64,000 nt of DNA from Liolophura sinensis (Eukaryota > Mollusca > Polyplacophora > Chitonida > Chitonidae): positions 82,132,644-82,196,643 of the forward strand of contig NC_088295.1 of the NCBI RefSeq assembly GCF_032854445.1, read 5' to 3'. The notes under the pieces are model-generated. The model had not been told where the DNA came from and did no database searches. It was given only the letters and a program-made list of their open reading frames with translations. Below are positions 1 to 53,909 of this stretch, one piece after another (position 1 is the first letter of the stretch; every line of letters begins with the position of its first letter). A program made the translations under genes and the position numbers.

Positions 1-3000
1 TGCGTTGAGCTGGACTTTGTGGTTGATGTCTGTGTTGAGGAAACTTCCGTCGCCGTTGGTGTGGACTGCGAAACATCTTGCGTTGTACTCGTATGTACCG
101 AGGCAGTGGTCTGGGTAGACACTGTAGAATCTGTTGTGGGGACAGCGGCAGACACCGTAGATTGTGTGGTCGCTGCGGAGGAAGAGGAAGTGTCCTGGGA
201 CACTGTACTGCTCAAAGTTGTTGATGGTGCAGAAGTGGATGTTAGTTGTGTGGTCGGCTCAACCGTTGTTGGCTCTTGAGTACTTGCTGTTGTAACAGAC
301 TGAGTACTGGTTACATCTTTACTGCTTGTTGTGGTACCTGCTGTGGACATGTCTGTAGTTTGGGTAGTAGGTGTCAGTGTTGGCGTTACGGATGGGGTAG
401 AAAATGTAACGGTGGTGGCGGTTGAAATGTCCGGCTGCGTTGAGCTGGACTTTGTGGTTGATGTCTGTGTTGAGGAAATTTCTGTCGCCGTTGGTGTGGA
501 CTGCGAAACATCTTGCGTTGTACTCGTATGTACTGTGGCAGTGGTCTGGGTAGACACTGTAGAATCTGTTGTGGGGACAGCGGCAGACACCGTAGATTGT
601 GTGGTAGCTCCAGAAGAGGAGGAAGTGTCCTGGGACACTGTACTGCTTAAAGTTGTTGATGGTGCAGAAGTGGATGTTGGTTGTGTGGTCGGCTCAACCG
701 TTGTTGGCTCTTGAGTACTTGCTGTTGTAACAGACTGAGTACTGGTTACATCTTTACTGCTTGTTGTGGTACCTGCTGTGGACATGTCTGTAGTTTGGGT
801 AGTAGGTGTCAGTGTTGGCGTTACGGATGGGGTAGAAAATGTAACGGTGGTGGCGGTTGAAATGTCCGGCTGCGTTGATCTGGACTTTGTGGTTGATGTC
901 TGTGTTGAGGAAACTTCTGTCGCCGTTGGTGTGGACTGCGAAACATCTTGCGTTGTACTCGTATGTACCGAGGCAGTTTTCTGGGTAGACACTGTATAAT
1001 CTGTTGTGGGGACAGCGGCAGACACCGTAGATTGTGTGGTCGCTTCGGAAGAGGAGGAAGTGTCCTGGGACACTGTACTGCTCAAAGTTGTTGATGGTGC
1101 AGAAGTGGATGTTGGTTGTGTGGTCGGCTCAACCGTTGTTGGCTCTTGAGTACTTGCTGTTGTAACAGACTGAGTACTGGTTACATCTTTACTGCTTGTT
1201 GTGGTACCAGCTGTGGACATGTCTGTAGTTTGGGTAGTAGGTGTCAGTGTTGGCGTTACGGATGGGGTAGAAAATGTAACGGTGGTGGCGGTTGAAATGT
1301 CCGGCTGCGTTGAGCTGGACTTTGTGGTTGATGTCTGTGTTGAGGAAACTTCTGTCGCCGTTGGTGTGGACTGCGAAACATCTTGCGTTGTACTCGTATG
1401 TACTGAGGCAGTGGTCTGGGTAGACACTGTAGAATCTGTTGTGGGGACAGCGGCAGACACCGTAGATTGTGTGGTAGCTGCGGAAGAGGAGGAAGTGTCC
1501 TGGGACACTGTACTGCTCAAAGTTGTTGATGGTGCAGAAGTGGACGTTGGTTGTGTGGTCGGCTCAACCGTTGTTGGCTCTTGAGTACTTGCTGTTGTAA
1601 CAGACTGAGTACTGGTTACATCTTTACTGCTTGTTGTGGTACCTGCTGTGGACATGTCTGTAGTTTGGGTAGTAGGTGTCAGTGTTGGCGTTACGGATGG
1701 GGTAGAAAATGTAACGGTGGTGGCGGTTGAAGTTTCCGGCTGCGTTGAGCTGGACTTTGTGGTTGATGTCTGTGTTGAGGAAACTTCCGTCGCCGTTGGT
1801 GTGGACTGCGAAACATCTTGCGTTGTACTCGTATGTACTGAGCCAGTGGTCTGGGTAGACACTGTAGAATCTGTTGTGGGGACAGCGGCAGACACCGTAG
1901 ATTGTGTGGTCGCTGCGGAAGAGGAGGAAGTGTCCTGGGACACTGTACTGCTCAAAGTTGTTGATGGTGCAGAAGTGGACGTTGGTTGTGTGGTCGGCTC
2001 AACCGTTGTTGGCTCTTGAGTACTTGCTGTTGTAACAGACTGAGTACTGGTTACATCTTTACTGCTTGTTGTGGTACCTGCTGTGGACATGTCTGTAGTT
2101 TGGGTAGTAGGTGTCAGTGTTGGCGTTACGGATGGGGTAGAAAATGTAACGGTGGTGGCGGTTGAAGTTTCCGGCTGCGTTGAGCTGGACTTTGTGGTTG
2201 ATGTCTGTGTTGAGGAAACTTCCGTCGCCGTTGGTGTGGACTGCGAAACATCTTGCGTTGTACTCGTATGTACTGAGCCAGTGGTCTGGGTAGACACTGT
2301 AGAATCTGTTGTGGGGACAGCGGCAGACACCGTAGATTGTGTGGTCGCTGCGGAAGAGGAGGAAGTGTCCTGGGACACTGTACTGCTCAAAGTTGTTGAT
2401 GGTGCAGAAGTGGACGTTGGTTGTGTGGTCGGCTCAACCGTTGTTGGCTCTTGAGTACTTGCTGTTGTAACAGACTGAGTACTGGTTACATCTTTACTGC
2501 TTGTTGTGGTACCTGCTGTGGACATGTCTGTAGTTTGGGTAGTAGGTGTCAGTGTTGGCGTTACGGATGGGGTAGAAAATGTAACGGTGGTGGCGGTTGA
2601 AGTTTCCGGCTGCGTTGAGCTGGACTTTGTGGTTGATGTCTGTGTTGAGGAAACTTCCGTCGCCGTTGGTGTGGACTGCGAAACATCTTGCGTTGTACTC
2701 GTATGTACTGAGGCAGTGGTCTGGGTAGACACTGTAGAATCTGTTGTGGGGACAGCGGCAGACACCGTAGATTGTGTGGTAGCTGCGGAAGAGGAGGAAG
2801 TGTCCTGGGACACTGTACTGCTCAAAGTTGTTGATGGTGCAGAAGTGGATGTTGGTTGTGTGGTCGGCTCAACCGTTGTTGGCTCTTGAGTACTTGCTGT
2901 TGTAACAGACTGAGTACTGGTTACATCTTTACTGCTTGTTGTGGTACCTTCCGTGGACATGTCTGTAGTTTGGGTAGTAGGTGTCAGTGTTGGCGTTACG

Positions 3001-6000
3001 GATGGGGTAGAAAATGTAACGGTGGTGGCGGTTGAAATGTCCGGCTGCGTTGAGCTGGACTTTGTGGTTGATGTCTGTGATGAGGAAACTTCCGTCGCCG
3101 TTGGTGTGGACTGCGAAACATCTTGCGTTGTACTCGTATGTACCGAGGCAGTTTTCTGGGTAGACACTGTATAATCTGTTGTGGGGACAGCGGCAGACAC
3201 CGTAGATTGTGTGGTAGCTCCAGAAGAAGAAGAAGTGTCCTGGGACACTGTACTGCTCAAAGTTGTTGATGGTGCAGAAGTCGATGTTGGTTGTGTGGTC
3301 GGCTCAACCGTTTTTGGCTCTTGAGTACTTGCTGTTGTAACAGACTGAGTACTGGTTACATCTTTACTGCTTGTTGTGGTACCAGCTGTGACATGTCTGT
3401 AGTTTGGGTAGTAGTTGTCAGTGTTGGCGTTACGGATGGGGTAGAAAATGTAACGGTGGTGGCGGTTGAAATGTCCGGCTGCGTTGAGCTGGACTTTGTG
3501 GTTGATGTCTGTGTTGAGGAAACTTCCGTCGCCGTTTGGTGTGGACTGCGAAACATCTTGCGTTGTACTCGTATGTACCGAGGCAGTGGTCTGGTAGACA
3601 CTGTAGAATCATGTTGTGGGGACAGCGGCAGACACCGTAGATTGTGGTGGTCGCTTCGGAGGAAGAGGAAGTGTCCTGGGACACTGTACTGCTCAAAGTT
3701 GTTGATGGTGCAGAAGTGGATGTTAGGTTGTGTGGTCGGCTCAACCGTTGTTGGCTCTTGAGTACTTGCTGTTGTAACAGACTGAGTACTGGTTACATCT
3801 TACTGCTTGTTGTGGTACCTGCTGTGGACATGTCTGTAGTTTGGGTAGTAGGTGTCAGTGTTGGCGTTACGGATGGGGTAGAAATGTAACGGTGGTGGCG
3901 GTTGAATGTCCGGCTGCGTTGAGCTGGACTTTGTGGTTGATGTCTGTGTTGAGGAAATTTCTGTCGCCGTTGGTGTGGACTGCGAAACATCTTGCGTTGT
4001 ACTCGTATGTACTGTGGCAGTGGTCTGGGTAGACACTGTAGAATCTGTTGTGGGACAGCGGCAGACACCGTAGATTGTGTGGTAGCTCCAGAAGAGGAGG
4101 AAGTGTCCTGGGACAACTGTACTGCTTAAAGTTTGTTGATGTGCAGAAGTGGATGTTGGTTGTGTGGTCGGCTCAACCGTTGTTGGCTCTTGAGTACTTG
4201 CTGTTGTAACAGACTGAGTACTGGTTACATCTTTAGTGCTTGTTGTGGTACCTGCTGTGGACAGGTCTGTAGTTTGGGTAGTAGGTGTCAATGTTGGCGT
4301 TACGGATGGGGTAGAAAATGTAACGGTGGTGGCGGTTGAAGTGTCCGGCTGCGTTGAGCTGGACTTTGTGGTTGATGTCTGTGTTGAGGAAACTTCCGTC
4401 GCCGTTGGTGTGGACTGCGAAACATCTTGCGTTGTACTCGTATGTACCGAGGCAGTGGTCTGGGTAGACACTGTAGAATCTGTTGTGGGGACATCAGCAG
4501 ACACCGTATATTGTGTGGTCGCTGCGGAAGAGGAGGAAGTGTCCTGGGACACTGTACTGCTGAAAGTTGTTGATGGTGCAGAAGTGGATGTTGGTTGTGT
4601 GGTCGGCTCAACCGTTGTTGGCTCTTGAGTACTTGCTGTTGTAACAGACTGACTACTGGTTACATCTTTACTGCTTGTTGTGGTACCTGCTGTGGACATG
4701 TCTGTAGTTTGGGTAGTAGGTGTCAGTGTTGGCGTTACGGATGGGGTAGAAAATGTAACGGTGGTGGCGGTTGAAATGTCCGGCTGCGTTGAGCTGGACT
4801 TTGTGGTTGATGTCTGTGTTGGGAAAACTTCCGTCGCCGTTGGTGTGGACTGCGAAACATCTTGCGTTGTACTTGTATGTACCGAGGCAGTGGTCTGGGT
4901 AGACACTGTAGAATCTGTTGTGGTGACAGCGGCAGACACCGTAGATTGTGTGGTAGATGCGGAAGAGGAGGAAGTATCCTGGGACACTGTACTGCTCAAA
5001 GTTGTTGATGGTGCAGAAGTGGATGTTGTTTGTGTGGTCGCCTCAACCGTTGTTGGCTCTTGAGTTGTAACAGCCTGAGTACTGGTTGATGTCTGTGTTG
5101 AGGAAACTTCCGTCGCCGTTGGTGTGGACTGCGAAACATCTTGCGTTGTACTCTTATGTACTGAGGCAGTTTTCTGAGTAGACACTGTAGAATATGTTGT
5201 GGGGACAGCGGCAGACACCGTAGATTGTGTGGTAGCTCCAGAAGAGGAGGAAGTGTCCTGGGACACTGTACTGCTTAAAGCTGTTGATGGTGCAGAAGTG
5301 GATGTTGGTTGTGTGGTCGGCTCAACCGTTGTTGGCTCTTGAGTACTTGCTGTTGTAACAGACTGAGTACTGGTTACATCTTTAGTGCTTGTTGTGGTAC
5401 CTGCTGTGGACAGGTCTGTAGTTTGGGTAGTAGGTGTCAATGTTGGCGTTACGGATGGGGTAGAAAATGTAACGGTGGTGGCGGTTGAAGTGTCCGGCTG
5501 CGTTGAGCTGGACTTTGTGGTTGATGTCTGTGTTGAGGAAACTTCCGTCGCCGTTGGTGTGGACTGCGAAACATCTTGCGTTGTACTCGTATGTACCGAG
5601 GCAGTGGTCTGGGTAGACACTGTAGAATCTGTTGTGGGGACATCAGCAGACACCGTATATTGTGTGGTCGCTGCGGAAGAGGAGGAAGTGTCCTGGGACA
5701 CTGTACTGCTGAAAGTTGTTGATGGTGCAGAAGTGGATGTTGGTTGTGTGGTCGGCTCAACCGTTGTTGGCTCTTGAGTACTTGCTGTTGTAACAGACTG
5801 AGTACTGGTTACATCTTTACTGCTTGTTGTGGTACCTGCTGTGGACATGTCTGTAGTTTGGGTAGTAGGTGTCAGTGTTGGCGTTACGGATGGGGTAGAA
5901 AATGTAACGGTGGTGGCGGTTGAAATGTCCGGCTGCGTTGAGCTGGACTTTGTGGTTGATGTCTGTGTTGAGGAAACTTCTGTCGCCGTTGGTGTGGACT

Positions 6001-9000
6001 GCGAAACATCTTGCGTTGTACTCGTATGTACGGAGGCAGTTTTCTGGGTAGACACTGTAGAATCTGTTGTGGGGACAGCGGCAGACACCGTAGATTGTGT
6101 GGTGGCTGCGGAGGAAGAGGAAGTGTCCTGGGACACTGTACTGCTCAAAGTTGTTGATGGTGCAGAAGTGGATGTTAGTTGTGTGGTCGGCTCAACCGTT
6201 GTTGGCTCTTGAGTACTTGCTGTTGTAACAGACTGAGTACTGGTTACATCTTTACTGCTTGTTGTGGTACCTGCTGTGGACATGTCTGTAGTTTGGGTAG
6301 TAGGTGTCAGTGTTGGCGTTACGGATGGGGTAGAAAATGTAACGGTGGTGGCGGTTGAAATGTCCGGCTGCGTTGAACTGGACTTTGTGGTTGATGTCTG
6401 TGTTAAGGAACCTTCAGTCGCCGTTGGTGTGGACTGCGAAACATCTTGCGTTGTACTCGTATGTACTGAGGCAGTGGTCTGGGTAGACACTGTAGAATCT
6501 GTTGTGGGGACAGCGGCAGACACCGTAGATTGTGTGGTAGCTGCGGAAGAGGAGGAAGTGTCCTGGGACACTGTACTGGTCAAAGTTGTTGATGGTGCAG
6601 AAGTGGACGTTGGTTGTGTGGTCGGCTCAACCGTTGTTGGCTCTTGAGTACTTGCTGTTGTAACAGACTGAGTACTGGTTACATCTTTACTGCTTGTTGT
6701 GGTACCTGCTGTGGACATGTCTGTAGTTTGGGTAGTAGGTGTCAGTGTTGGCGTTACGGATGGGGTAGAAAATGTAACGGTGGTGGCGGTTGAAGTTTCC
6801 GGCTGCGTTGAGCTGGACTTTGTGGTTGATGTCTGTGTTGAGGAAACTTCCGTCGCCGTTGGTGTGGACTGCGAAACATCTTGCGTTGTACTCGTATGTA
6901 CTGAGGCAGTGGTCTGGGTAGACACTGTAGAATCTGTTGTGGGGACAGCGGCAGACACCGTAGATTGTGTGGTAGCTGCGGAAGAGGAGGAAGTGTCCTG
7001 GGACACTGTACTGCTCAAAGTTGTTGATGGTGCAGAAGTGGATGTTAGTTGTGTGGTCGGCTCAACCGTTGTTGGCTCTTGAGTACTTGCTGTTGTAACA
7101 GACTGAGTACTGGTTACATCTTTACTGCTTGTTGTGGTACCTTCCGTGGACATGTCTGTAGTTTGGGTAGTAGTTGTCAATGTTGGCGTTACGGATGGGG
7201 TAGAAAATGTAACGGTGGTGGCGGTTGAAATGTCCGGCTGCGTTGAGCTGGACTTTGTGGTTGATGTCTGTGTTGAGGAAACTTCCGTCGCCGTTGGTGT
7301 GGACTGCGAAACATCTTGCGTTGTACTCGTATGTACCGAGGCAGTGGTCTGGGTAGACACTGTAGAATCTGTTGTGGGGACAGCGGCAGACACCGTAGAT
7401 TGTGTGGTCGCTGCGGAGGAAGAGGAAGTGTCCTGGGACACTGTACTGCTCAAAGTTGTTGATGGTGCAGAAGTGGATGTTAGTTGTGTGGTCGGCTCAA
7501 CCGTTGTTGGCTCTTGAGTACTTGCTGTTGTAACAGACTGAGTACTGGTTACATCTTTACTGCTTGTTGTGGTACCTGCTGTGGACATGTCTGTAGTTTG
7601 GGTAGTAGGTGTCAGTGTTGGCGTTACGGATGGGGTAGAAAATGTAACGGTGGTGGCGGTTGAAATGTCCGGCTGCGTTGAGCTGGACTTTGTGGTTGAT
7701 GTCTGTGTTGAGGAAATTTCTGTCGCCGTTGGTGTGGACTGCGAAACATCTTGCGTTGTACTCGTATGTACTGTGGCAGTGGTCTGGGTAGACACTGTAG
7801 AATCTGTTGTGGGGACAGCGGCAGACACCGTAGATTGTGTGGTAGCTCCAGAAGAGGAGGAAGTGTCCTGGGACACTGTACTGCTTAAAGTTGTTGATGG
7901 TGCAGAAGTGGATGTTGGTTGTGTGGTCGGCTCAACCGTTGTTGGCTCTTGAGTACTTGCTGTTGTAACAGACTGAGTACTGGTTACATCTTTACTGCTT
8001 GTTGTGGTACCTGCTGTGGACATGTCTGTAGTTTGGGTAGTAGGTGTCAGTGTTGGCGTTACGGATGGGGTAGAAAATGTAACGGTGGTGGCGGTTGAAA
8101 TGTCCGGCTGCGTTGATCTGGACTTTGTGGTTGATGTCTGTGTTGAGGAAACTTCTGTCGCCGTTGGTGTGGACTGCGAAACATCTTGCGTTGTACTCGT
8201 ATGTACCGAGGCAGTTTTCTGGGTAGACACTGTATAATCTGTTGTGGGGACAGCGGCAGACACCGTAGATTGTGTGGTCGCTTCGGAAGAGGAGGAAGTG
8301 TCCTGGGACACTGTACTGCTCAAAGTTGTTGATGGTGCAGAAGTGGATGTTGGTTGTGTGGTCGGCTCAACCGTTGTTGGCTCTTGAGTACTTGCTGTTG
8401 TAACAGACTGAGTACTGGTTACATCTTTACTGCTTGTTGTGGTACCAGCTGTGGACATGTCTGTAGTTTGGGTAGTAGGTGTCAGTGTTGGCGTTACGGA
8501 TGGGGTAGAAAATGTAACGGTGGTGGCGGTTGAAATGTCCGGCTGCGTTGAGCTGGACTTTGTGGTTGATGTCTGTGTTGAGGAAACTTCTGTCGCCGTT
8601 GGTGTGGACTGCGAAACATCTTGCGTTGTACTCGTATGTACTGAGGCAGTGGTCTGGGTAGACACTGTAGAATCTGTTGTGGGGACAGCGGCAGACACCG
8701 TAGATTGTGTGGTAGCTGCGGAAGAGGAGGAAGTGTCCTGGGACACTGTACTGCTCAAAGTTGTTGATGGTGCAGAAGTGGACGTTGGTTGTGTGGTCGG
8801 CTCAACCGTTGTTGGCTCTTGAGTACTTGCTGTTGTAACAGACTGAGTACTGGTTACATCTTTACTGCTTGTTGTGGTACCTGCTGTGGACATGTCTGTA
8901 GTTTGGGTAGTAGGTGTCAGTGTTGGCGTTACGGATGGGGTAGAAAATGTAACGGTGGTGGCGGTTGAAGTTTCCGGCTGCGTTGAGCTGGACTTTGTGG

Positions 9001-12000
9001 TTGATGTCTGTGTTGAGGAAACTTCCGTCGCCGTTGGTGTGGACTGCGAAACATCTTGCGTTGTACTCGTATGTACTGAGCCAGTGGTCTGGGTAGACAC
9101 TGTAGAATCTGTTGTGGGGACAGCGGCAGACACCGTAGATTGTGTGGTCGCTGCGGAAGAGGAGGAAGTGTCCTGGGACACTGTACTGCTCAAAGTTGTT
9201 GATGGTGCAGAAGTGGACGTTGGTTGTGTGGTCGGCTCAACCGTTGTTGGCTCTTGAGTACTTGCTGTTGTAACAGACTGAGTACTGGTTACATCTTTAC
9301 TGCTTGTTGTGGTACCTGCTGTGGACATGTCTGTAGTTTGGGTAGTAGGTGTCAGTGTTGGCGTTACGGATGGGGTAGAAAATGTAACGGTGGTGGCGGT
9401 TGAAGTTTCCGGCTGCGTTGAGCTGGACTTTGTGGTTGATGTCTGTGTTGAGGAAACTTCCGTCGCCGTTGGTGTGGACTGCGAAACATCTTGCGTTGTA
9501 CTCGTATGTACCGAGGCAGTTTTCTGGGTAGACACTGTATAATCTGTTGTGGGGACAGCGGCAGACACCGTAGATTGTGTGGTAGCTCCAGAAGAAGAAG
9601 AAGTGTCCTGGGACACTGTACTGCTTAAAGTTGTTGATGGTGCAGAAGTGGATGTTGGTTGTGTGGTCGGCTCAACCGTTTTTGGCTCTTGTGTACTTGC
9701 TGTTGTAACAGACTGAGTACTGGTTACATCTTTACTGCTTGTTGTGGTACCAGCTGTGGACATGTCTGTAGTTTGGGTAGTAGTTGTCAGTGTTGGCGTT
9801 ACGGATGGGATAGAAAATGTAACGGTGGTGGCGGTTGAAATGTCCGGCTGCGTTGAGCTGGACTTTGTGGTTGATGTCTGTGTTGAGGAAACTTCCGTCG
9901 CCGTTGGTGTGGACTGCGAAACATCTTGCGTTGTACTCGTATGTACCGAGGCAGTTTTCTGGGTAGACACTGTAGAATCTGTTGTGGGGACAGCGGCAGA
10001 CACCGTAGATTGTGTGGTAGCTGCGAAAGAGGAGGAAGTGTCCTGGGACACTGTACTGCTCAAAGTTGTTGATGGTGCAGAAGTGGATGTTGGTTGTGTG
10101 GTCGGCTCAACCGTTGTTGGTTCTTGAGTACTTGCTGTTGTAACAGACTGAGTACTGGTTACATCTTTACTGCTTGTTGTGGTACCTGCTGTGGACATGT
10201 CTGTAGTTTGGGTAGTAGGTGTCAGTGTTGGCGTTACGGATGGGGTAGAAAATGTAACGGTGGTGGCGGTTGAAATGTCCGGCTGCGTTGAGCTGGACTT
10301 TGTGGTTGATGTCTGTGTTGAGGAAACTTCTGTCGCCGTTGGTGTGGACTGCGAAACATCTTGCGTTGTACTCGTATGTACCGAGGCAGTTTTCTGGGTA
10401 GACACTGTAGAATCTGTTATGGGGACAGCGGCAGACACCGTAGATTGTGTGGTCGCTTCGGAAGAGGAGGAAGTGTCCTGGGACACTGTACTGCTCAAAG
10501 TTGTTGATGGTGCAGAAGTGGATGTTGGTTGTGTGGTCGGCTCAACCGTTGTTGGCTCTTGAGTACTTGCTGTTGTAACAGACTGAGTACTGGTTACATC
10601 TTTACTGCTTGTTGTGGTACCTGCTGTGGACATGTCTGTAGTTTGGGTAGTAGGTGTCAGTGTTGGCGTTACGGATGGGGTAGAAAATGTAACGGTGGTG
10701 GCGGTTGAAATGTCCGGCTGCGTTGAGCTGGACTTTGTGGTTGATGTTTGTGTTGAGGAAACTTCTGTCGCCGTTGGTGTGGACTGCGAAACATCTTGCG
10801 TTGTACTCGTATGTACTGAGGCAGTTTTCTGGGTAGACACTGTAGAATCTGTTGTGGGGACAGCGGCAGACACCGTAGATTGTGTGGTCGCTTCGGAAGA
10901 GGAGGAAGTGTCCTGGGACACTGTACTGCTCAAAGTTGTTGATGGTGCAGAAGTGGATGTTGGTTGTGTGGTCGGCTCAACCGTTGTTGGCTCTTGAGTA
11001 CTTGCTGTTGTAACAGACTGAGTACTGGTTACATCTTTACTGCTTGTTGTGGTACCTGCTGTGGACATGTCTGTAGTTTGGGTAGTAGGTGTCAGTGTTG
11101 GCGTTACGGATGGGGTAGAAAATGTAACGGTGGTGGCGGTTGAAATGTCCGGCTGCGTTGAGCTGGACTTTGTGGTTGATGTCTGTGTTGAGGAAACTTC
11201 CGTCGCCGTTGGTGTGGACTGCGAAACATCTTGCGTTGTACTCGTATGTACTGAGGCAGTTTTCTGGGTAGACACTGTAGAATCTGTTGTGGGGACAGCG
11301 GCAGACACCGTAGATTGTGTGGTAGCTGCGGAAGAGGAGGAAGTGTCCTGGGACACTGTACTGCTCAAAGTTGTTGATGGTGCAGAAGTGGACGTTGGTT
11401 GTGTGGTCGGCTCAACCGTTGTTGGCTCTTGAGTACTTGCTGTTGTAACAGACTGAGTACTGGTTACATCTTTACTGCTTGTTGTGGTACCTGCTGTGGA
11501 CATGTCTGTAGTTTGGGTAGTAGGTGTCAGTGTTGGCGTTACGGATGGGGTAGAAAATGTAACGGTGGTGGCGGTTGAAGTTTCCGGCTGCGTTGAGCTG
11601 GACTTTGTGGTTGATGTCTGTGTTGAGGAAACTTCCGTCGCCGTTGGTGTGGACTGCGAAACATCTTGCGTTGTACTCGTATGTACTGAGCCAGTGGTCT
11701 GGGTAGACACTGTAGAATCTGTTGTGGGGACAGCGGCAGACACCGTAGATTGTGTGGTCGCTGCGGAAGAGGAGGAAGTGTCCTGGGACACTGTACTGCT
11801 CAAAGTTGTTGATGGTGCAGAAGTGGATGTTGGTTGTGTGGTCGGCTCAACCGTTGTTGGCTCTTGAGTACTTGCTGTTGTAACAGACTGAGTACTGGTT
11901 ACATCTTTACTGCTTGTTGTGGTACCTGCTGTGGACATGTCTGTAGTTTGGGTAGTAGGTGTCAGTGTTGGCGTTACGGATGGGGTAGAAAATGTAACGG

Positions 12001-15000
12001 TGGTGGCGGTTGACGTTTCCGGCTGCGTTGAGCTGGACTTTGTGGTTGATGTCTGTGTTGAGGAAACTTCCGTCGCCGTTGGTGTGGACTGCGAAACATC
12101 TTGCGTTGTACTCGTATGTACCGAGGCAGTTTTCTGGGTAGACACTGTAGAATCTGTTGTGGGGACAGCGGCAGACACCGTAGATTGTGTGGTAGCTGCA
12201 GAAGAGGAGGAAGTGTCCTGGGACACTGTACTGCTCAAAGTTGTTGATGGTGCAGAAGTGGATGTTGGTTGTGTGGTCGGCTCAACCGTTGTTGGCTCTT
12301 GAGTACTTGCTGTTGTAACAGACTGAGTACTGGTTACATCTTTACTGCTTGTTGTGGTACCTTCCGTGGACATGTCTGTAGTTTGGGTAGTAGGTGTCAG
12401 TGTTGGCGTTACGGATGGGGTAGAAAATGTAACGGTGGTGGCGGTTGAAATGTCCGGCTGCGTTGAGCTGGACTTTGTGGTTGATGTCTGTGTTGAGGAA
12501 ACTTCTGTCGCCGTTGGTGTGGACTGCGAAACATCTTGCGTTGTACTCGTATGTACCGAGGCAGTGGTCTGGGTAGACACTGTAGAATCTGTTGTGGGGA
12601 CAGCGGCAGACACCGTAGATTGTGTGGTAGCTCCAGAAGAGGAGGAAGTGTCCTGGGACACTGTACTGCTTAAAGTTGTTGATGGTGCAGAAGTGGATGT
12701 TGGTTGTGTGGTCGGCTCAACCGTTGTTGGCTCTTGAGTACTTGCTGTTGTAACAGACTGAGTACTGGTTACATCTTTACTGCTTGTTGTGGTACCAGCT
12801 GTGGACATCTCTGTAGTTTGGGTAGTAGTTGTCAGTGTTGGCGTTACGGATGGGGTAGAAAATTTAACGGTGGTGGCGGTTGAAATGTCCGGCTGCGTTG
12901 AGCTGGACTTTGTGGTTGATGTCTGTGATGAGGAAACTTCCGTCGCCGTTGGTGTGGACTGCGAAACATCTTGCGTTGTACTCGTATGTACCGAGGCAGT
13001 TTTCTGGGTAGACACTGTATAATCTGTTGTGGGGACAGCGGCAGACACCGTAGATTGTGTGGTAGCTCCAGAAGAAGAAGAAGTGTCCTGGGACACTGTA
13101 CTGCTTAAAGTTGTTGATGGTGCAGAAGTGGATGTTGGTTGTGTGGTCGGCTCAACCGTTGTTGGCTCTTGAGTACTTGCTGTTGTAACAGACTGAGTAC
13201 TGGTTACATCTTTACTGCTTGTTGTGGTACCTGCTGTGGACATGTCTGTAGTTTGGGTAGTAGGTGTCAGTGTTGGCGTTACGGATGGGGTAGAAAATGT
13301 AACGGTGGTGGCGGTTGAAGATTCCGGCTGCGTTGAGCTGGACTTTGTGGTTGATGTCTGTGTTGAGGAAACTTCCGTCGCCGTTGGTGTGGACTGCGAA
13401 ACATCTTGCGTTGTACTCGTATGTACTGAGGCAGTGGTCTGGGTAGACACTGTAGAATCTGTTGTGGGGACAGCGGCAGACACCGTAGATTGTGTGGTAG
13501 CTGCGGAAGAGGAGGAAGTGTCCTGGGACACTGTACTGCTCAAAGTTGTTGATGGTGCAGAAGTGGACGTTGGTTGTGTGGTCGGCTCAACCGTTGTTGG
13601 CTCTTGAGTACTTGCTGTTGTAACAGACTGAGTACTGGTTACATCTTTACTGCTTGTTGTGGTACCTGCTGTGGACATGTCTGTAGTTTGGGTAGTAGGT
13701 GTCAGTGTTGGCGTTACGGATGGGGTAGAAAATGTAACGGTGGTGGCGGTTGAAGTTTCCGGCTGCGTTGAGCTGGACTTTGTGGTTGATGTCTGTGTTG
13801 AGGAAACTTCCGTCGCCGTTGGTGTGGACTGCGAAACATCTTGCGTTGTACTCGTATGTACCGAGGCAGTTTTCTGGGTAGACACTGTAGAATTTGTTGT
13901 GGGGACAGCGGCAGACACCGTAGATTGTGTGGTCGCTTCGGAAGAGGAGGAAGTGTCCTGGGACACTGTACTGCTCAAAGTTGTTGATGGTGCAGAAGTG
14001 GATGTTGGTTGTGTGGTCGGCTCAACCGTTGTTGGCTCTTGAGTACTTGCTGTTGTAACAGACTGAGTACTGGTTACATCTTTACTGCTTGTTGTGGTAC
14101 CTGCTGTGGACATGTCTGTAGTTTGGGTAGTAGGTGTCAGTGTTGGCGTTACGGAAGGGGTAGAAAATGTAACGGTGGTGGCGGTTGAAATGTCCGGCTG
14201 CGTTGAGCTGGACTTTGTGGTTGATGTCTGTGTTGAGGAAACTTCCGTCGCCGTTGGTGTGGACTGCGAAACATCTTGCGTTGTACTCGTATGTACCGAG
14301 GCAGTTTTCTGGGTAGACACTGTAGAATCTGTTGTGGGGACAGCGGCAGACACCGTAGATTGTGTGGTAGCTGCGGAAGAGGAGGAAGTGTCCTGGGACA
14401 CTGTACTGCTCAAAGTTGTTGATGGTGCAGAAGTGGATGTTGGTTGTGTGGTCGGCTCAACCGTTGTTGGCTCTTGAGTACTTGCTGTTGTAACAGACTG
14501 AGTACTGGTTACATCTTTACTGCTTGTTGTGGTACCTGCTGCGGACATGTCTGTAGTTTGGGTAGTAGGTGTCAGTGTTGGCGTTACGGATGGGGTAGAA
14601 AATGTAACGGTGGTGGCGGTTGAAGTTTCCGGCTGCGTTGAGCTGGACTTTGTGGTTGATGTCTGTGTTGAGGAAACTTCCGTCGCCGTTGGTGTGGACT
14701 GCGAAACATCTTGCGTTGTACTCGTATGTACTGAGGCAGTGGTCTGGGTAGACACTGTAGAATCTGTTGTGGGGACAGCGGCAGACACCGTAGATTGTGT
14801 GGTAGCTGCGGAAGAGGAGGAAGTGTCCTGGGACACTGTACTGCTCAAAGTTGTTGATGGTGCAGAAGTGGACGTTGGTTGTGTGGTCGGCTGAACCGTT
14901 GTTGGCTCTTGAGTACTTGCTGTTGTAACAGACTGAGTACTGGTTACATCTTTACTGCTTGTTGTGGTACCTGCTGTGGACATGTCTGTAGTTTGGGTAG

Positions 15001-18000
15001 TAGGTGTCAGTGTTGGCGTTACGGATGGGGTAGAAAATGTAACGGTGGTGGCGGTTGAAGTTTCCGGCTGCGTTGAGCTGGACTTTGTGGTTGATGTCTG
15101 TGTTGAGGAAACTTCTGTCGCCGTTGGTGTGGACTGCGAAACATCTTGCGTTGTACTCGTATGTACCGAGGCAGTTTTCTGGGTAGACACTGTAGAATCT
15201 GTTGTGGGGACAGCGGCAGACACCGTAGATTGTGTGGTCGCTTCGGAAGAGGAGGAAGTGTCCTGGGACACTGTACTGCTCAAAGTTGTTGATGGTGCAG
15301 AAGTGGATGTTGGTTGTGTGGTCGGCTCAACCGTTGTTGGCTCTTGAGTACTTGCTGTTGTAACAGACTGAGTACTGGTTACATCTTTACTGCTTGTTGT
15401 GGTACCTGCTGTGGACATGTCTGTAGTTTGGGTAGTAGGTGTCAGTGTTGGCGTTACGGATGGGGTAGAAAATGTAACGGTGGTGGCGGTTGAAGATTCC
15501 GGCTGCGTTGAGCTGGACTTTGTGGTTGATGTCTGTGTTGAGGAAACTTCCGTCGCCGTTGGTGTGGACTGCGAAACATCTTGCGTTGTACTCGTATGTA
15601 CTGAGGCAGTGGTCTGGGTAGACACTGTAGAATCTGTTGTGGGGACAGCGGCAGACACCGTAGATTGTGTGGTAGCTGCGGAAGAGGAGGAAGTGTCCTG
15701 GGACACTGTACTGCTCAAAGTTGTTGATGGTGCAGAAGTGGACGTTGGTTGTGTGGTCGGCTCAACCGTTGTTGGCTCTTGAGTACTTGCTGTTGTAACA
15801 GACTGAGTACTGGTTACATCTTTACTGCTTGTTGTGGTACCTGCTGTGGACATGTCTGTAGTTTGGGTAGTAGGTGTCAGTGTTGGCGTTACGGATGGGG
15901 TAGAAAATGTAACGGTGGTGGCGGTTGAAGTTTCCGGCTGCGTTGAGCTGGACTTTGTGGTTGATGTCTGTGTTGAGGAAACTTCCGTCGCCGTTGGTGT
16001 GGACTGCGAAACATCTTGCGTTGTACTCGTATGTACCGAGGCAGTTTTCTGGGTAGACACTGTAGAATTTGTTGTGGGGACAGCGGCAGACACCGTAGAT
16101 TGTGTGGTCGCTTCGGAAGAGGAGGAAGTGTCCTGGGACACTGTACTGCTCAAAGTTGTTGATGGTGCAGAAGTGGATGTTGGTTGTGTGGTCGGCTCAA
16201 CCGTTGTTGGCTCTTGAGTACTTGCTGTTGTAACAGACTGAGTACTGGTTACATCTTTACTGCTTGTTGTGGTACCTGCTGTGGACATGTCTGTAGTTTG
16301 GGTAGTAGGTGTCAGTGTTGGCGTTACGGATGGGGTAGAAAATGTAACGGTGGTGGCGGTTGAAATGTCCGGCTGCGTTGAGCTGGACTTTGTGGTTGAT
16401 GTCTGTGTTGAGGAAACTTCCGTCGCCGTTGGTGTGGACTGCGAAACATCTTGCGTTGTACTCGTATGTACCGAGGCAGTTTTCTGGGTAGACACTGTAG
16501 AATCTGTTGTGGGGACAGCGGCAGACACCGTAGATTGTGTGGTAGCTGCGGAAGAGGAGGAAGTGTCCTGGGACACTGTACTGCTCAAAGTTGTTGATGG
16601 TGCAGAAGTGGATGTTGGTTGTGTGGTCGGCTCAACCGTTGTTGGCTCTTGAGTACTTGCTGTTGTAACAGACTGAGTACTGGTTACATCTTTACTGCTT
16701 GTTGTGGTACCTGCTGCGGACATGTCTGTAGTTTGGGTAGTAGGTGTCAGTGTTGGCGTTACGGATGGGGTAGAAAATGTAACGGTGGTGGCGGTTGAAG
16801 TTTCCGGCTGCGTTGAGCTGGACTTTGTGGTTGATGTCTGTGTTGAGGAAACTTCCGTCGCCGTTGGTGTGGACTGCGAAACATCTTGCGTTGTACTCGT
16901 ATGTACTGAGGCAGTGGTCTGGGTAGACACTGTAGAATCTGTTGTGGGGACAGCGGCAGACACCGTAGATTGTGTGGTCGCTGCGGAGGAAGAGGAAGTG
17001 TCCTGGGACACTGTACTGCTCAAAGTTGTTGATGGTGCAGAAGTGGATGTTAGTTGTGTGGTCGGCTCAACCGTTGTTGGCTCTTGAGTACTTGCTGTTG
17101 TAACAGACTGAGTACTGGTTACATCTTTACTGCTTGTTGTGGTACCTGCTGTGGACATGTCTGTAGTTTGGGTAGTAGGTGTCAGTGTTGGCGTTACGGA
17201 TGGGGTAGAAAATGTAACGGTGGTGGCGGTTGAAATGTCCGGCTGCGTTGAGCTGGACTTTGTGGTTGATGTCTGTGTTGAGGAAATTTCTGTCGCCGTT
17301 GGTGTGGACTGCGAAACATCTTGCGTTGTACTCGTATGTACTGTGGCAGTGGTCTGGGTAGACACTGTAGAATCTGTTGTGGGGACAGCGGCAGACACCG
17401 TAGATTGTGTGGTAGCTCCAGAAGAGGAGGAAGTGTCCTGGGACACTGTACTGCTTAAAGTTGTTGATGGTGCAGAAGTGGATGTTGGTTGTGTGGTCGG
17501 CTCAACCGTTGTTGGCTCTTGAGTACTTGCTGTTGTAACAGACTGAGTACTGGTTACATCTTTACTGCTTGTTGTGGTACCTGCTGTGGACATGTCTGTA
17601 GTTTGGGTAGTAGGTGTCAGTGTTGGCGTTACGGATGGGGTAGAAAATGTAACGGTGGTGGCGGTTGAAATGTCCGGCTGCGTTGATCTGGACTTTGTGG
17701 TTATGTCTGTGTTGAGGAAACTTCTGTCGCCGTTGGTGTGGACTGCGAAACATCTTGCGTTGTACTCGTATGTACCGAGGCAGTTTTTCTGGGTAGACAC
17801 TGTATAATCTGTTGTGGGGGACAGCGGCAGACACCGTAGATTGTGTGGTCGCTTCGGAAGAGGAGGAAGTGTCCTGGGACACTGTACTGCTCAAAGTTGT
17901 TGATGGTGCAGAAGTGGATGTTGGTTGTGTGGTCGGCTCAACCGTTGTTGGCTCTTGAGTACTTGCTGTTGTAACAGACTGAGTACTGGTTACATCTTTA

Positions 18001-21000
18001 CTGCTTGTTGTGGTACCAGCTGTGGACATGTCTGTAGTTTGGGTAGTAGGTGTCAGTGTTGGCGTTACGGATGGGGTAGAAAATGTAACGGTGGTGGCGG
18101 TTGAAATGTCCGGCTGCGTTGAGCTGGGACTTTGTGGTTGATGTCTGTGTTGAGGAAACTTCTGTCGCCGTTGGTGTGGACTGCGAAACATCTTGCGTTG
18201 TACTCGTATGTACTGAGGCAGTGGTCTGGGTAGACACTGTAGAATCTGTTGTGGGGACAGCGGCAGACACCGTAGATTGTGTGGTAGCTGCGGAAGAGGA
18301 GGAAGTGTCCTGGGACACTGTACTGCTCAAAGTTGTTGATGGTGCAGAAGTGGACGTTGGTTGTGTGGTCGGCTCAACCGTTGTTGGCTCTTGAGTACTT
18401 GCTGTTGACAGACTGAGTACTGGTTACATCTTTACTGCTTGTTGTGGTACCTGCTGTGGACATGTCTGTAGTTTGGGTAGTAGGTGTCAGTGTTGGCGTT
18501 ACGGATGGGGTAGAAAATGTAACGGTGGTGGCGGTTGAAGTTTCCGGCTGCGTTGAGCTGGACTTTGTGGTTGATGTCTGTGTTGAGGAAACTTCCGTCG
18601 CCGTTGGTGTGGACTGCGAAACATCTTGCGTTGTACTCGTATGTACTGAGGCAGTGGTCTGGGTAGACACTGTAGAATCTGTTGTGGGGACAGCGGCAGA
18701 CACCGTAGATTGTGTGGTAGCTGCGGAAGAGGAGGAAGTGTCCTGGGACACTGTACTGGTCAAAGTTGTTGATGGTGCAGAAGTGGATGTTGGTTGTGTG
18801 GTCGGCTCAACCGTTGTTGGCTCTTGAGTACTTGCTGTTGTAACAGACTGAGTACTGGTTACATCTTTACTGCTTGTTGTGGTACCTGCTGTGGACATGT
18901 CTGTAGTTTGGGTAGTAGGTGTCAGTGTTGGCGTTACGGATGGGGTAGAAAATGTAACGGTGGTGGCGGTTGAAATGTCCGGCTGCGTTGAGCTGGACTT
19001 TGTGGTTGATGTCTGTGTTGAGGAAACTTCCGTCGCCGTTGGTGTGGACTGCGAAACATCTTGCGTTGTACTCGTATGTACCGAGGCAGTTTTCTGGGTA
19101 GACACTGTAGAATCTGTTGTGGGGACAGCGGCAGACACCGTAGATTGTGTGGTAGCTGCGGAAGAGGAGGAAGTGTCCTGGGACACTGTACTGCTCAAAG
19201 TTGTTGATGGTGCAGAAGTGGATGTTGGTTGTGTGGTCGGCTCAACCGTTGTTGGCTCTTGAGTACTTGCTGTTGTAACAGACTGAGTACTGGTTACATC
19301 TTTACTGCTTGTTGTGGTACCTGCTGTGGACATGTCTGTAGTTTGGGTAGTAGGTGTCAGTGTTGGCGTTACGGATGGGGTAGAAAATGTAACGGTGGTG
19401 GCGGTTGAAATGTCCGGCTGCGTTGAGCTGGACTTTGTGGTTGATGTCTGTGTTGAGGAAACTTCTGTTGCCGTTGGTGTGGACTGCGAAACATCTTGCG
19501 TTGTACTCGTATGTACCGAGGCAGTTTTCTGGGTAGACACTGTAGAATCTGTTGTGGGGACAGCGGCAGACACCGTAGATTGTGTGGTCGCTTCGGAAGA
19601 GGAGGAAGTGTCCTGGGACACTGTACTGCTCAAAGTTGTTGATGGTGCAGAAGTGGATGTTGGTTGTGTGGTCGGCTCAACCGTTGTTGGCTCTTGAGTA
19701 CTTGCTGTTGTAACAGACTGAGTACTGGTTACATCTTTACTGCTTGTTGTGGTACCTGCTGTGGACATGTCTGTAGTTTGGGTAGTAGGTGTCAGTGTTG
19801 GCGTTACGGATGGGGTAGAAAATGTAACGGTGGTGGCGGTTGAAGTTTCCGGCTGCGTTGAGCTGGACTTTGTGGTTGATGTCTGTGTTGAGGAAACTTC
19901 CGTCGCCGTTGGTGTGGACTGCGAAACATCTTGCGTTGTACTCGTATGTACCGAGGCAGTGGTCTGGGTAGACACTGTAGAATCTGTTGTGGGGACAGCG
20001 GCAGACACCGTAGATTGTGTGGTAGCTGCGGAAGAGGAGGAAGTGTCCTGGGACACTGTACTGGTCAAAGTTGTTGATGGTGCAGAAGTGGATGTTGGTT
20101 GTGTGGTCGGCTCAACCGTTGTTGGCTCTTGAGTACTTGCTGTTGTAACAGACTGAGTACTGGTTACATCTTTACTGCTTGTTGTGGTACCTGCTGTGGA
20201 CATGTCTGTAGTTTGGGTAGTAGGTGTCAGTGTTGGCGTTACGGATGGGGTAGAAAATGTAACGGTGGTGGCGGTTGAAATGTCCGGCTGCGTTGAGCTG
20301 GACTTTGTGGTTGATGTCTGTGTTGAGGAAACTTCTGTCGCCGTTGGTGTGGACTGCGAAACATCTTGCGTTGTACTCGTATGTACCGAGGCAGTTTTCT
20401 GGGTAGACACTGTAGAATCTGTTGTGGGGACAGCGGCAGACACCGTAGATTGTGTGGTCGCTTCGGAAGAGGAGGAAGTGTCCTGGGACACTGTACTGCT
20501 CAAAGTTGTTGATGGTGCAGAAGTGGATGTTGGTTGTGTGGTCGGCTCAACCGTTGTTGGCTCTTGAGTACTTGCTGTTGTAACAGACTGAGTACTGGTT
20601 ACATCTTTACTGCTTGTTGTGGTACCTGCTGTGGACATGTCTGTAGTTTGGGTAGTAGGTGTCAGTGTTGGCGTTACGGATGGGGTAGAAAATGTAACGG
20701 TGGTGGCGGTTGAAATGTCCGGCTGCGTTGAGCTGGACTTTGTGGTTGATGTCTGTGTTGAGGAAACTTCCGTCGCCGTTGGTGTGGACTGCGAAACATC
20801 TTGCGTTGTACTCGTATGTACTGAGGCAGTGGTCTGGGTAGACACTGTAGAATCTGTTGTGGGGACAGCGGCAGACACCGTAGATTGTGTGGTCGCTGCG
20901 GAAGAGGAGGAAGTGTCCTGGGACACTGTACTGCTCAAAGTTGTTGATGGTGCAGAAGTGGATGTTGGTTGTGTGGTCGGCTCAACCGTTGTTGGCTCTT

Positions 21001-22791
21001 GAGTACTTGCTGTTGTAACAGACTGAGTACTGGTTACATCTTTACTGCTTGTTGTGGTACCTGCTGTGGACATGTCTGTAGTTTGGGTAGTAGGTGTCAG
21101 TGTTGGCGTTACGGATGGGGTATAAAATGTAACGGTGGTGGCGGTTGAAGTTTCCGGCTGCGTTGAGCTGGACTTTGTGGTTGATGTCTGTGTTGAGGAA
21201 ACTTCCGTCGCCGTTGGTGTGGACTGCGAAACATTTTGCGTTGTACTCGTATGTACCGAGGCAGTTTTCTGGGTAGACACTGTAGAATCTGTTGTGGGGA
21301 CAGCGGCAGACACCGTAGATTGTGTGGTAGCTGCGGAAGAGGAGGAAGTGTCCTGGGACACTGTACTGCTCAAAGTTGTTGATGGTGCAGAAGTGGATGT
21401 TGGTTGTGTGGTCGGCTCAACCGTTGTTGGCTCTTGAGTACTTGCTGTTGTAACAGACTGAGTACTGGTTACATCTTTACTGCTTGTTGTGGTACCTTCC
21501 GTGGACATGTCTGTAGTTTGGGTAGTAGGTGTCAGTGTTGGCGTTACGGATGGGGTAGAAAATGTAACGGTGGTGGCGGTTGAAATGTCCGGCTGCGTTG
21601 AGCTGGACTTTGTGGTTGATGTCTGTGTTGAGGAAACTTCCGTCGCCGTTGGTGTGGACTGCGAAACATCTTGCGTTGTACTCGTATGTACCGAGGCAGT
21701 TTTCTGGGTAGACACTGTAGAATCTGTTGTGGGGACAGCGGCAGACACCGTAGATTGTGTGGTAGCTGCGGAGGAAGAGGAAGTGTCCTGGGACACTGTA
21801 CTGCTCAAAGTTGTTGATGGTGCAGAAGTGGATGTTAGTTGTGTGGTGGGCTCAACCGTTGTTGGCTCTTGAGGACTTGCTGTTGTAACAGACTGAGTAC
21901 TGGTTACATCTTTACTGCTTGTTGTGGTACCTGCTGTGGACATGTCTGTAGTTTGGGTAGTAGGTGTCAGTGTTGGCGTTACGGATGGGGTAGAAAATGT
22001 AACGGTGGTGGCGGTTGAAGTTTCCGGCTGCGTTGAGCTGGACTTTGTGGTTGATGTCTGTGTTGAGGAAACTTCCGTCGCCGTTGGTGTGGACTGCGAA
22101 ACATCTTGCGTTGTACTCGTATGTACTGAGGAAGTGGTCTGGGTAGACACTGTAGAATCTGTTGTGGGGACAGCGGCAGACACCGTAGATTGTGTGGTCG
22201 CTCCAGAAGAGGAGGAAGTGTCCTGGGACATTGTACTGCTCAATGTTGTTGATGGTGCAGAAGTGGATGTTGGTTGTGTGGTCGACTCAATTGGTGTTGG
22301 CTCTTGGGTATTTGCGATTGTAATCGACTGACTACTTGTTACATATTTACTGCTTGTTGGCGACTGAGTGGTACTAGCTGTCAACATGTCTGTAGTTTTG
22401 GTAGTAGGCGGCAGTGTTGACGTTACAGATGCAGTAGAAAATGTGCTGGTTGTGGCGGTTCTGGCCGTTGAAGTGTCCGGCTGTGTTGAGCTGTATTCTT
22501 TTGTTGATATCTTTGTTGACGAAACATCCTTCGCCGTTGGTGTGAACTGCGAAACATCTGGCGTTGTGCTCGGATATACCGAGTCAGTGGTCTGAATGGA
22601 CACGGTAGAATCTGTTGTTGGGACAGCGGCAGACACCATAGATTGTGTGTTTGTATCGGAAGAAGAGGAGGTGTCCTGGGACACTGTCATTGTTTTTGAA
22701 AATAAATTGGACAATATTTTTGTCGTGCTCGATGGAAGATTTGTTGCTGTTGTCGATGCAGGCACATTTTTGGTTTCACTGTTGACAAATG
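1..22791 (-). CDS. Giant Ser/Thr-rich mucin-like exon ('gene B'), 5' exon border visible, left end off window
   Basis: Minus-strand exon of about 7,590 codons encoding a PTS (mucin-type) domain for dense O-glycosylation. Each 145-residue unit has about 84 Ser+Thr, about 11 Pro, no Cys and almost no aromatic residues. The exon starts at 22791 after a good acceptor (TTTACTACTTTCAG, RC of 22792-22805). Its first two bases complete a split codon (phase 1) and it then reads FVNSETKNVPASTT. No ATG initiates here: the apparent start at 22765 is GTG, so the signal peptide must be on an upstream exon, which I did not find. The frame stays open across the array except for indel patches near 3390-4143 (net -1) and 17702-18410 (net 0). 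A 435-bp period and deletions that are multiples of three fit selection on the frame. Family knowledge: giant PTS exons usually precede SEA/EGF/transmembrane exons, expected here left of position 1. An alternative is a secreted gel-forming or shell-matrix mucin. Confidence 0.85.
331..1584 (-). repeat. Marker block present three times complete and once in part
   Basis: A set of consecutive units with private variants (GAGGAAATTTCTGTC with TACTGTGGCAGTGG; then GCGTTGATCTGGAC with ACTGTATAATC; then GGTACCAGCTGTGG) is found at 331/766/1201, at 7569/8004/8439 and at 17139/17574/18009. Its first member also appears near 3815-4140. The 7569 to 17139 spacing is 9570 bp (22 units). It documents long-range copying within the array. 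Confidence 0.8.
3386..4143. other. Cluster of about 13 single-base indels in the array (probable low-quality consensus)
   Basis: Two consecutive units here differ from all others by single-base gains or losses, mostly in short homopolymers. Examples are CTGTGACATG near 3390 (lost G), GCCGTTTGG at 3531 (extra T), CTGGTAGACA at 3591 (lost G), GTTAGGTTG near 3723 (extra G), GTAGAAATG near 3879 (lost A), TGTGGGACAG near 4049 (lost G) and GACAACTG near 4113 (extra A). The net change is -1. Units on both sides are clean. This looks like unpolished long-read sequence or an assembly join and not like a decayed gene. Confidence 0.75.
4236..5777 (-). repeat. Duplicated unit pair at 1149-bp spacing
   Basis: The units at 4236-4628 and 5385-5777 match in all their unusual variants: CTTTAGTGCTTG, GACAGGTCTG, GTGTCAATGTTGG and GACATCAGCAGACACCGTATAT. 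They are 1149 bp apart, equal to two full units plus the 279-bp short unit. This marks a local duplication that included or flanked the deletion-bearing unit. Confidence 0.8.
5059..5385 (-). repeat. Shortened mucin unit (279 bp) with two in-frame deletions
   Basis: The GTGGTACC landmark at 4680 is followed by the next at 5394, a spacing of 714 bp (435 + 279). Compared with neighbours, this unit lacks 9 bp after GGCTCTTGAG and 147 bp between ACTGGTT and GATGTCTGTG, a total of 156 bp (52 codons). Both losses keep the frame, and the protein runs STQTSTSTQAVTTQEPTTVE. It is the only length-variant canonical unit in the array. Confidence 0.9.
13224..17573 (-). repeat. Five-unit higher-order repeat, two tandem copies of 2175 bp
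   Basis: Units starting at 13224, 13659, 14094, 14529 and 14964 carry the same diagnostic variants, in the same order, as those at 15399, 15834, 16269 and 16704. These are GAAGATTCC at 13318 and 15493, GAATTTGTTG at 13891 and 16066, and CTGCTGCGGACA at 14537 and 16712. The spacing is 5 x 435 = 2175 bp. The second copy then passes into another block at 17139, so the duplication is recent and block-wise. Confidence 0.85.
17702..18410. other. Second cluster of indels in the array (probable low-quality consensus)
   Basis: Five length changes break the reading frame: GGTTATGTC at 17700 (lost G), CAGTTTTTCTGG at 17781 (extra T), TGTGGGGGACAG at 17813 (extra G), GAGCTGGGACTTT at 18121 (extra G) and CTGTTGACAGAC at 18402 (lost two bases). 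They sum to zero, so the frame on the two sides agrees. This is why the array appears as two long ORFs (3800-17800 and 18374-22765). Confidence 0.75.
18444..21053 (-). repeat. Three-unit higher-order repeat, two tandem copies of 1305 bp
   Basis: Units beginning at 18444 and 19749 share the rare variant ACTGGTCAAAG (normally ACTGCTCAAAG) at 18756 and 20061, exactly 1305 bp apart. The units that follow (19314 and 20184) share the TCGCTTCGG variant. The same rare ACTGGTCAAAG change also occurs in the unit at 6264. Confidence 0.7.
22331..22791 (-). repeat. Divergent 453-bp edge copy and unique N-terminal leader of the mucin exon
   Basis: The TCCTGGGACA landmark at 22221 recurs at 22674, a spacing of 453 bp (151 codons) instead of 435. 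This copy has many substitutions and three-codon insertions. It reads SVYPSTTPDVSQFTPTAKDV where the consensus has SVHTSTTQDVSQSTPTATEV. About 35 codons of non-repeat leader precede it (FVNSETKNVPAS, then SSTTKILSNLFSKTMTV). A diverged terminal copy is expected at the edge of an array homogenised by unequal crossing-over. Its frame is intact, which supports coding function. Confidence 0.85.
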
Positions 22792-35297: not shown

Positions 35298-35611
35298 CAG
35301 TCCCAGACGACAGTATTCATCTCAAATGACCAAATAAGAAAATCTATGAAGAATTGCCCAAATTTTAAAGAGATCATACAGAGTATAGTTTATATATGTT
35401 GAAAAGTTCTTGTGTCGTCATCATCAGAAATCAATATAAATATTTTTATAGCAGTTCTTCTGTAAATATTTTCTTCAACGAGTTTTACGTTACACATCAA
35501 CAGAAAATCATTTGATTTCTGTGTTTTCAGACAATCTGTCAGTGCGTTTGCATGGTATACCCTTCTTTTTGGGAAACACCCTGTAGTGGGGAGAAATTGA
35601 ACCTTGGTATG
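35298..35611. other. No gene seen
   Basis: AT-rich spacer between SINE copies; no ORF with support. Confidence 0.45.
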
Positions 35612-35780
35612 TATATATTTGAATGGTGTTATACGCCGTATTCAAGAGTATTTCACTTATACGACGGTGGCTTGTGTTATTTTGGGAGGAATCCGTACAG
35701 AGCCCGAGGAAAACCACGATCATCCACAGGTTGCTGGCAAAGCTGCCCACTTACGGCCGGAGAGGAAGTCAGCGTGAACA
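35612..35780 (-). mobile_element. SINE-2 copy, 5'-truncated
   Basis: Reverse-orientation SINE-2: TACGCCGTATTCAAGAGTAT, CACTTATACGACGGTGGC, GAGCCCGAGGAAAACCACGA and CGGCCGGAGAGGAAGTCAGC. It ends before the tRNA-like head. It abuts a second copy on the same strand. Confidence 0.85.
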
Positions 35781-36022
35781 GGATTTACTTACTTATTTAT
35801 TTGTTTGATTGGTGTTTCACGCCGTACTCAAGAATATTTCACTTATACGACGGCGGCCAGCATTACGCTGGGTGGAAACCGGGCAAAGCTCGGGGGAAAC
35901 CCCATTTGCTGAAGACCGTCCCACGTACGCATGAACAGGACTCAAAACGACGGCGTTGGTGAGAGGCTCCTGGGCCATTGCGATGCGCTGGCATGCTAAG
36001 ACCGTCGGGCTCGGAGGTCCCC
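35781..36022 (-). mobile_element. SINE-2 copy, adjacent to the previous one
   Basis: Starts with TTATTTATTTGTTTGATTGG, the reverse complement of the A-rich 3' tail, followed by CACGCCGTACTCAAGAATAT, CACTTATACGACGGCGGCCA and GAGGCTCCTGGGCCATTGCG toward the head. The two adjacent same-strand copies suggest insertion of one into the A-rich tail of the other. Confidence 0.85.
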
Positions 36023-53647: not shown

Positions 53648-53909
53648 TCAGTCGGGGAACAGTGGCAATGGCATACCTATGTCTGGTTGTGCCGCAGTGT
53701 CGCCGATGTCCTCGTCCGGGAAGTACATGCCCGGAAGAGGGTTGCGGTGGTACAGGTCCGTACCGGTTGTCGTCTCTTCCGTCTCTGCCTCATCCTCGGA
53801 ATCCTCCCAGGGGTCGGCACCGAAGTCAGACCGCGTGATGATGTGCTTCCAGTTAGGCGGCAGCAGGAAACTTCGAGGGATTCGGAATGACCCGGCTACG
53901 TTCGTTGTA
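53648..53909 (-). CDS. Gene A last exon: cytoplasmic tail and stop
   Basis: 262 bp, acceptor CATGTGTTCTCAG. Encodes 86 residues after the split codon: TTNVAGSFRIPRSFLLPPNW, then an acidic stretch (DPWEDSEDEAETEETTTGTD), then DLYHRNPLPGMYFPDED and a C-terminus PLPLFPD. It has two tyrosines in acidic/proline context, no ITAM-like pair and no class I PDZ ligand. The ORF above the acceptor is intron read-through. Confidence 0.87.

Follow-up and report, generated by a model that had tools for sequence, protein, structure and literature searches.

The closest described systems to the locus analyzed here are MUC4 and the cnidarian mucin4-like proteins, in which a giant Ser/Thr-rich repeat exon is followed by NIDO, AMOP, VWD, EGF, and transmembrane (TM) parts (PMC8660890, PMC9080433). 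MUC4 carries a putative GDPH site (PMC8660890), and its alleles reach 27,843 bp (PMC13345508). The cnidarian mucin4-like proteins contain NIDO, AMOP, and VWD, and one form also contains SEA; the same paper includes the proposal of a SEA-domain loss in MUC4 (PMC9080433). Another tethered mucin with a single repeat exon is human MUC12, which is predicted to reach up to 23,080 residues and, in some people, forms the largest single coding exon in the genome (PMC13345508).

Here, we analyzed a chiton locus with a comparable layout. The window, that is, the whole stretch of 64,000 bp under analysis, corresponds to C1:82,132,644-82,196,643 (C1, contig NC_088295.1), and its left part is occupied by a Ser/Thr-rich tandem-repeat exon that stands before a NIDO domain, as in MUC4-type mucins. 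Judged from the DNA sequence, the locus is likely (probability about 0.8) to be a functional gene for a MUC4-like type-I membrane mucin, whose stalk exon would measure ~95 kb as assembled. It is called MUC4-like, and orthology is not claimed, because GDPH is absent and the AMOP match lies under the cut-off.

The 5' quarter of the mucin exon spans window positions 1..22791 on the minus strand. The phase-1 acceptor at 22,791, which the first-pass annotation had placed there, was confirmed, as was the 435-bp (145-residue) minus-strand tandem unit, which fills positions 22,687-1 (53 anchors; TRF). The unit consensus contains 57.9% Ser+Thr, matching the proportion of ~58% given earlier, together with 6.9% Pro and no Cys. 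The array had been expected to run past the left edge, and it extends 72.3 kb beyond it; the whole exon runs from window position 22,791 to -72,337 (C1:82,155,434-82,060,306; negative positions lie left of the window), measuring 95,129 bp or ~31,700 codons as assembled, including one 200-N gap. At its 3' end, the repeats give way to a divergent Ser/Thr-rich tail, which is followed by a phase-1 donor. The earlier proposal of a single exon of at least 7,590 codons is therefore supported as to a giant mucin exon, but the size had been understated ~4-fold. One open frame was not confirmed: as assembled, the minus strand of the window carries three long ORFs, with 1,483, 4,696, and at least 1,202 codons. 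Likewise, the reported absence of Cys holds for the consensus, but Cys is rare rather than absent in the array, with one distinct Cys-creating variant in the clean units and 0 to 6 Cys per ORF, the latter probably in out-of-frame ORF ends.

Unit lengths were then determined along the whole array, in which 222 anchors defined 221 intervals. As observed, 185 intervals were 435 bp long, nine were 279 bp, five were 288 bp, and 22 had other lengths, such that 199/221 fell into the first three classes. Every one of the 14 short units was a multiple of 3 (279 or 288 bp), with the 279-bp units on the N-terminal side and the 288-bp units on the C-terminal side of the array. Among the 22 odd-length intervals, 20 lay inside three patches (A-C, described below), and the rest were the first unit, which is divergent (453 bp), and one isolated unit of 434 bp at -41,444. 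Most apparent 434/436 interval pairs were anchor artefacts; an anchor tolerating substitutions only left the single 434-bp unit at -41,444. Divergence between units hardly rose with distance, from 3.8% between neighbours to 4.1% for those more than 60 units apart (185 units). When the genome was searched with the unit at the protein level, the 150 matches scored, from 726 candidates, all lay inside this array.

ORF length alone was set aside as evidence, since any in-frame unit, once repeated, is by construction open in all its copies; the tests relied on the depletion of nonsense and on unit lengths instead. The 181 clean full units contained 325 distinct variants, comprising 226 missense, 99 synonymous, and 0 nonsense variants, whereas 225.3, 90.5, and 9.2 were expected, respectively, and zero nonsense was reached in 0/2,000 spectrum-matched simulations. 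Therefore, the frame is under selection. The same depletion was observed when all 185 full units were counted (338 variants, nonsense 0 vs 9.5 expected). Cys-creating variants were also fewer than expected in the clean units (1 vs 4.9, P 0.03), and constraint on Ser/Thr content was not detected there (101 losses vs 101.8 expected). These variant counts indicate that selection maintains the open frame, and none was seen on missense change.

The same data bear on whether the array is translated as one exon at all. It could be spliced out or spliced within, or it could be a satellite beside a normal gene, and vertebrate MUC4 indeed has a splice variant, MUC4/Y, that is without the repeat. However, nonsense is depleted in this very frame, the short units are in frame, and the array runs into splice-compatible unique coding sequence at both ends. 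Coding on the opposite strand was rejected, the longest plus-strand frame in the exon being 276 residues. We regard an array that is not translated as one exon as very unlikely, and as the least probable of the alternatives weighed here.

Next, the frame breaks present in the assembly were compared with intact units. All lie on the minus strand. In patch A (window 17449..18754), each of three units has 1-3 indel bases, through which the frame is shifted and then restored. Patch B (3251..4555) also comprises three units, which carry 3, 7, and 5 indel bases, and it shifts the frame. The breaks in the window, at ~18,376-17,893 and ~3,800, are small, clustered indels. Patch C (-6,163 to -14,531) surrounds the 200-N gap at -10,276 to -10,077 and includes both contig ends, and the isolated break at -41,444 is a change of CCCC to CCC in the 434-bp unit. 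Between these breaks, the longest frames in the exon have 10,170, 9,275, 4,696, 3,364, and 1,471 codons, and the left contig holds the uninterrupted frames of 10,170 and 9,275 codons. Twenty-one units (20 from the patches plus the isolated one) were each compared with the nearest clean unit, leaving out those shorter than 400 bp, longer than 460 bp, or containing N. In these, 45/52 indel bases were in homopolymer context. No substitutions were found in 7/7 units compared from patches A and B, whereas the 13 units from patch C had 0 to 11 each, and the isolated unit had 15; clean units differed from their own nearest neighbour at 0 to 21 positions, mostly fewer than 10. The frame breaks look like uncorrected read error. 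According to the Liolophura japonica genome paper, the assembly was made with hifiasm and YaHS from 14X HiFi reads with a mean length of 8,347 bp (PMC11068029); the word "mucin" is absent from the main text of that paper. The data deposited with it include the HiFi reads (SRX20411988) and five tissue transcriptomes.

Were the frameshifts genuine, the locus would be a decaying pseudogene. The broken frame at patches A, B, and C and at -41,444 could be taken in this sense, as could the substitutions in patch C and the NIDO1 exon of the neighbouring paralogue, which is likewise frame-broken as assembled. The homopolymer context and the unsubstituted units of patches A and B argue against decay, however, and patch C adjoins the scaffold gap, with substitution counts within the clean-unit range. 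Moreover, the 181 clean units carry no nonsense variant, and the 3' exons are open. We therefore consider decay very unlikely and retain the reading as a functional gene.

The length of the array is a more serious concern. The gene may be real and its array length wrong, through tandem-joined haplotypes or contig ends or through collapsed repeats, such that the true exon would be more than 10% off 95 kb. The 14X coverage with 8.3-kb mean reads (PMC11068029) points in this direction, as do the 200-N gap inside the array and a 4,230-bp exact pair that flanks patch B on either side. In one register, the two contig ends may also overlap, over 2,775 bp with 70 mismatches, 45 gaps, and an offset of 4.3 kb, but higher scores are obtained in other registers. 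On the other hand, no other exact repeat exceeds 1,922 bp, a length that 8.3-kb reads can span, and the left contig by itself holds 62.1 kb of exon up to unique NIDO sequence; the right contig holds 32.9 kb. An error of this size is a real possibility, somewhat short of even odds, and we cautiously give the exon length as 60-95 kb plus a gap of unspecified size.

Both ends of the proposed gene were modelled. At the 5' end, a candidate exon 1 (window 24523..24565, minus strand) encodes MRVTVTLFGIYLVL, is followed by a phase-1 donor, and joins the mucin exon as A-FVNSETK; intron 1 would then occupy 22792..24522 on the same strand, separating this candidate signal-peptide exon from the mucin-exon acceptor. 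When 41 kb of minus strand was scanned for a signal peptide ending in a phase-1 donor, this was the one match, lying 1.7 kb from the acceptor; the plus strand gave none. Random sequence would give 0.88 matches per 41 kb or 0.04 per 2 kb. The donor of this candidate is weak, scoring just above the threshold used. At the 3' end, the mucin tail and 16 further exons, 17 pieces in all, splice together stop-free across 1,234 residues. Simple scores and inspection by eye guided the choice of splice sites, several of which, including the acceptor of NIDO1 and the donor of VWD1, are weak.

Pfam analysis covered 1,050 of the 1,234 spliced residues. The spliced model matched NIDO (PF06119; E 1.2e-32, 113.9 bits, cut-off 25), VWD (PF00094; E 2.9e-13, 50.9 bits, cut-off 22.9), and EGF_CA in four stretches (E 1.6e-22). 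An AMOP-like match reached E 0.001 with one exon and 0.0066 with two exons spliced, both under the Pfam cut-off, and the long model, searched at E 0.01, did not list it; C8-3_MUC4 (PF23263) gave E 7.5e-4 and 1.4e-4, both also under the cut-off. By sequence, the VWD part was closest in the PDB to FCGBP and von Willebrand factor. The position of the putative GDPH of MUC4 reads GGPH in the spliced model. Further phase-matched exons downstream encode a SEA-like segment, EGF, a putative transmembrane helix with RRKKKKKK, and then a tail running past the analyzed stretch. The hydrophobic run followed by RRKKKKKK was recognized by eye, and its exon is conserved in the paralogue. The SEA-like segment is encoded by three minus-strand exons with consistent phases (L029:1483-1755, 2000-2150, and 2895-3110). 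Its likeness to SEA was judged by eye; no Pfam match was found, and the best PDB match (E 0.6) was an unrelated kinase.

Many mucins are cleaved at their SEA domains, and the SEA-like segment precedes the helix, so most of the protein might be secreted or shed instead of being tethered. However, the helix is followed by a basic stop-transfer run, and the tail resembles that of the paralogue. Cleaving SEA domains carry G-S, whereas the segment here has G-K or G-E, as read by eye, and GGPH stands at the GDPH site. A mainly secreted or shed product therefore appears unlikely, albeit less so than decay of the gene.

Taken as a tethered mucin, the product would be built from one exon carrying a Ser/Thr-rich stalk of ~31,700 residues with ~220 repeats, and from downstream exons that, in a splice-compatible open model, would supply NIDO, AMOP-like, VWD, EGF, and SEA-like parts, the transmembrane helix, and the tail. 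The candidate signal peptide would route it into the secretory pathway. Judging from composition, ~18,000 Ser/Thr residues may be densely O-glycosylated. Mucins extend by ~0.25 nm per residue, and the stalk would be a stiff bottle-brush several micrometres long. Such a molecule could be anchored in epithelial membranes as a glycocalyx or mucus scaffold, without the GDPH cleavage of MUC4. The array itself would evolve through gain or loss of whole units or of in-frame part units.

Neither the MUC4-like transmembrane layout nor a second array in an adjacent paralogue was within view of the first-pass annotation. tblastn located counterparts for 18/19 target exons upstream on the same strand, with none for VWD2. 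They extend between the TM exon, at window 54.4 kb, and NIDO, at C1:82,214,473, and we infer that they make up one gene. The minus strand of the window also holds an ORF resembling the cytoplasmic tail (53648..54022; likeness to the target tail by eye), and tblastn placed there the transmembrane exon (54360..54539; 58% identity to that of the target over 60 residues), an EGF-like exon (54799..54903; 80% identity to target exon E20), and a SEA-like exon (55403..55567; 62% identity to target exon E19). tblastn also gave a second E20-like EGF exon (57183..57287), a second E19-like (SEA-like) exon (58906..59076), and a third E20-like EGF exon (63765..63866), all on the minus strand; E19-like and E20-like exons occur in five copies each near the paralogue, E19 being the last of the three exons that encode the SEA-like segment of the target. 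The NIDO1 exon (C1:82,214,473-82,214,159) is the one noted above and contains stops as assembled. GDPH was not seen when the paralogue stretch was read in three frames.

A Ser/Thr array that seems to belong to the paralogue lies just right of the window, upstream of the paralogous NIDO-to-TM exons (C1:82,323,343-82,217,743, minus strand), and covers 105.6 kb with no N. It holds ~35,000 residues in frames of 15,785, 9,312, 6,771, and 1,590 codons, with four frame-change zones. Its repeats have periods of about 408 and 153 bp and look unrelated to the 145-residue unit. A spacing scan of this array matched two places per unit and was left out of the results. The array also contains an overlapping 5,407-bp exact pair, possibly an assembly duplication, and a signal-peptide scan of the 1.8 kb upstream of it found nothing. 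We put at about an even chance the broader proposal that two adjacent genes each encode a cell-surface mucin of more than 30,000 residues in single exons of ~95 and ~105 kb, with unrelated repeats amplified independently, anchor domains kept, and GDPH lost.

Compared with MUC4, the chiton exon measures ~95 kb as assembled against alleles of at most 27,843 bp, its unit has 145 residues, GGPH replaces GDPH, AMOP is weak, and the EGF exons outnumber the three of MUC4 (PMC8660890). The SEA-like segment recalls the cnidarian mucin4-like form with SEA (PMC9080433) and is relevant to the proposed SEA loss in MUC4. MUC12 differs in size, its 23,080 residues standing against ~31,700 for the target exon as assembled and ~35,000 for the paralogue array, and the chiton genes have the NIDO/VWD architecture. 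Searches of open-licence PMC papers yielded no report of the chiton gene and none of any larger exon in an animal, and we know of no larger animal coding exon. Proteins of tens of thousands of residues include titin and PKZILLA-1; titin is assembled from hundreds of exons, and the PKZILLAs have been described as algal polyketide synthases. Provided that these lengths hold, an animal would transcribe, splice, and translate coding exons of ~100 kb, with implications for where exon definition, translation, and protein size reach their limits. The paralogue pair would also serve as a natural experiment on repeat-array growth under selection for the frame, not the residues, and micrometre-long tethered brushes would supply a physical basis for part of the chiton surface or mucus. 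Such genes would easily be overlooked in short-read or low-coverage annotation.

Genome-wide, the NIDO family gave at least 16 exon matches. Four stretches upstream of other NIDO exons were checked for Ser/Thr-rich frames. At C1:30.36 and 77.1 Mb, frames of 252 and 449 codons were found, and the C13 stretch upstream of its NIDO exon had no such frame. In C1:30,319,148-30,329,147, a Thr-rich repeat frame of 1,686 codons (TTTTTTAEP-like) lies upstream of another NIDO exon, at positions 1525-6582 on the plus strand. Elsewhere in the window, a minisatellite of ~34 bp, with higher periods of 174 and 242 bp, occupies 46,475-47,682. Similar WCFTPYSRIFHLYDGGQ-like ORF pieces recur at 35,516-35,962, 36,572-36,867, 42,005-42,271, and 45,126-45,404, and these probably represent a dispersed repeat.
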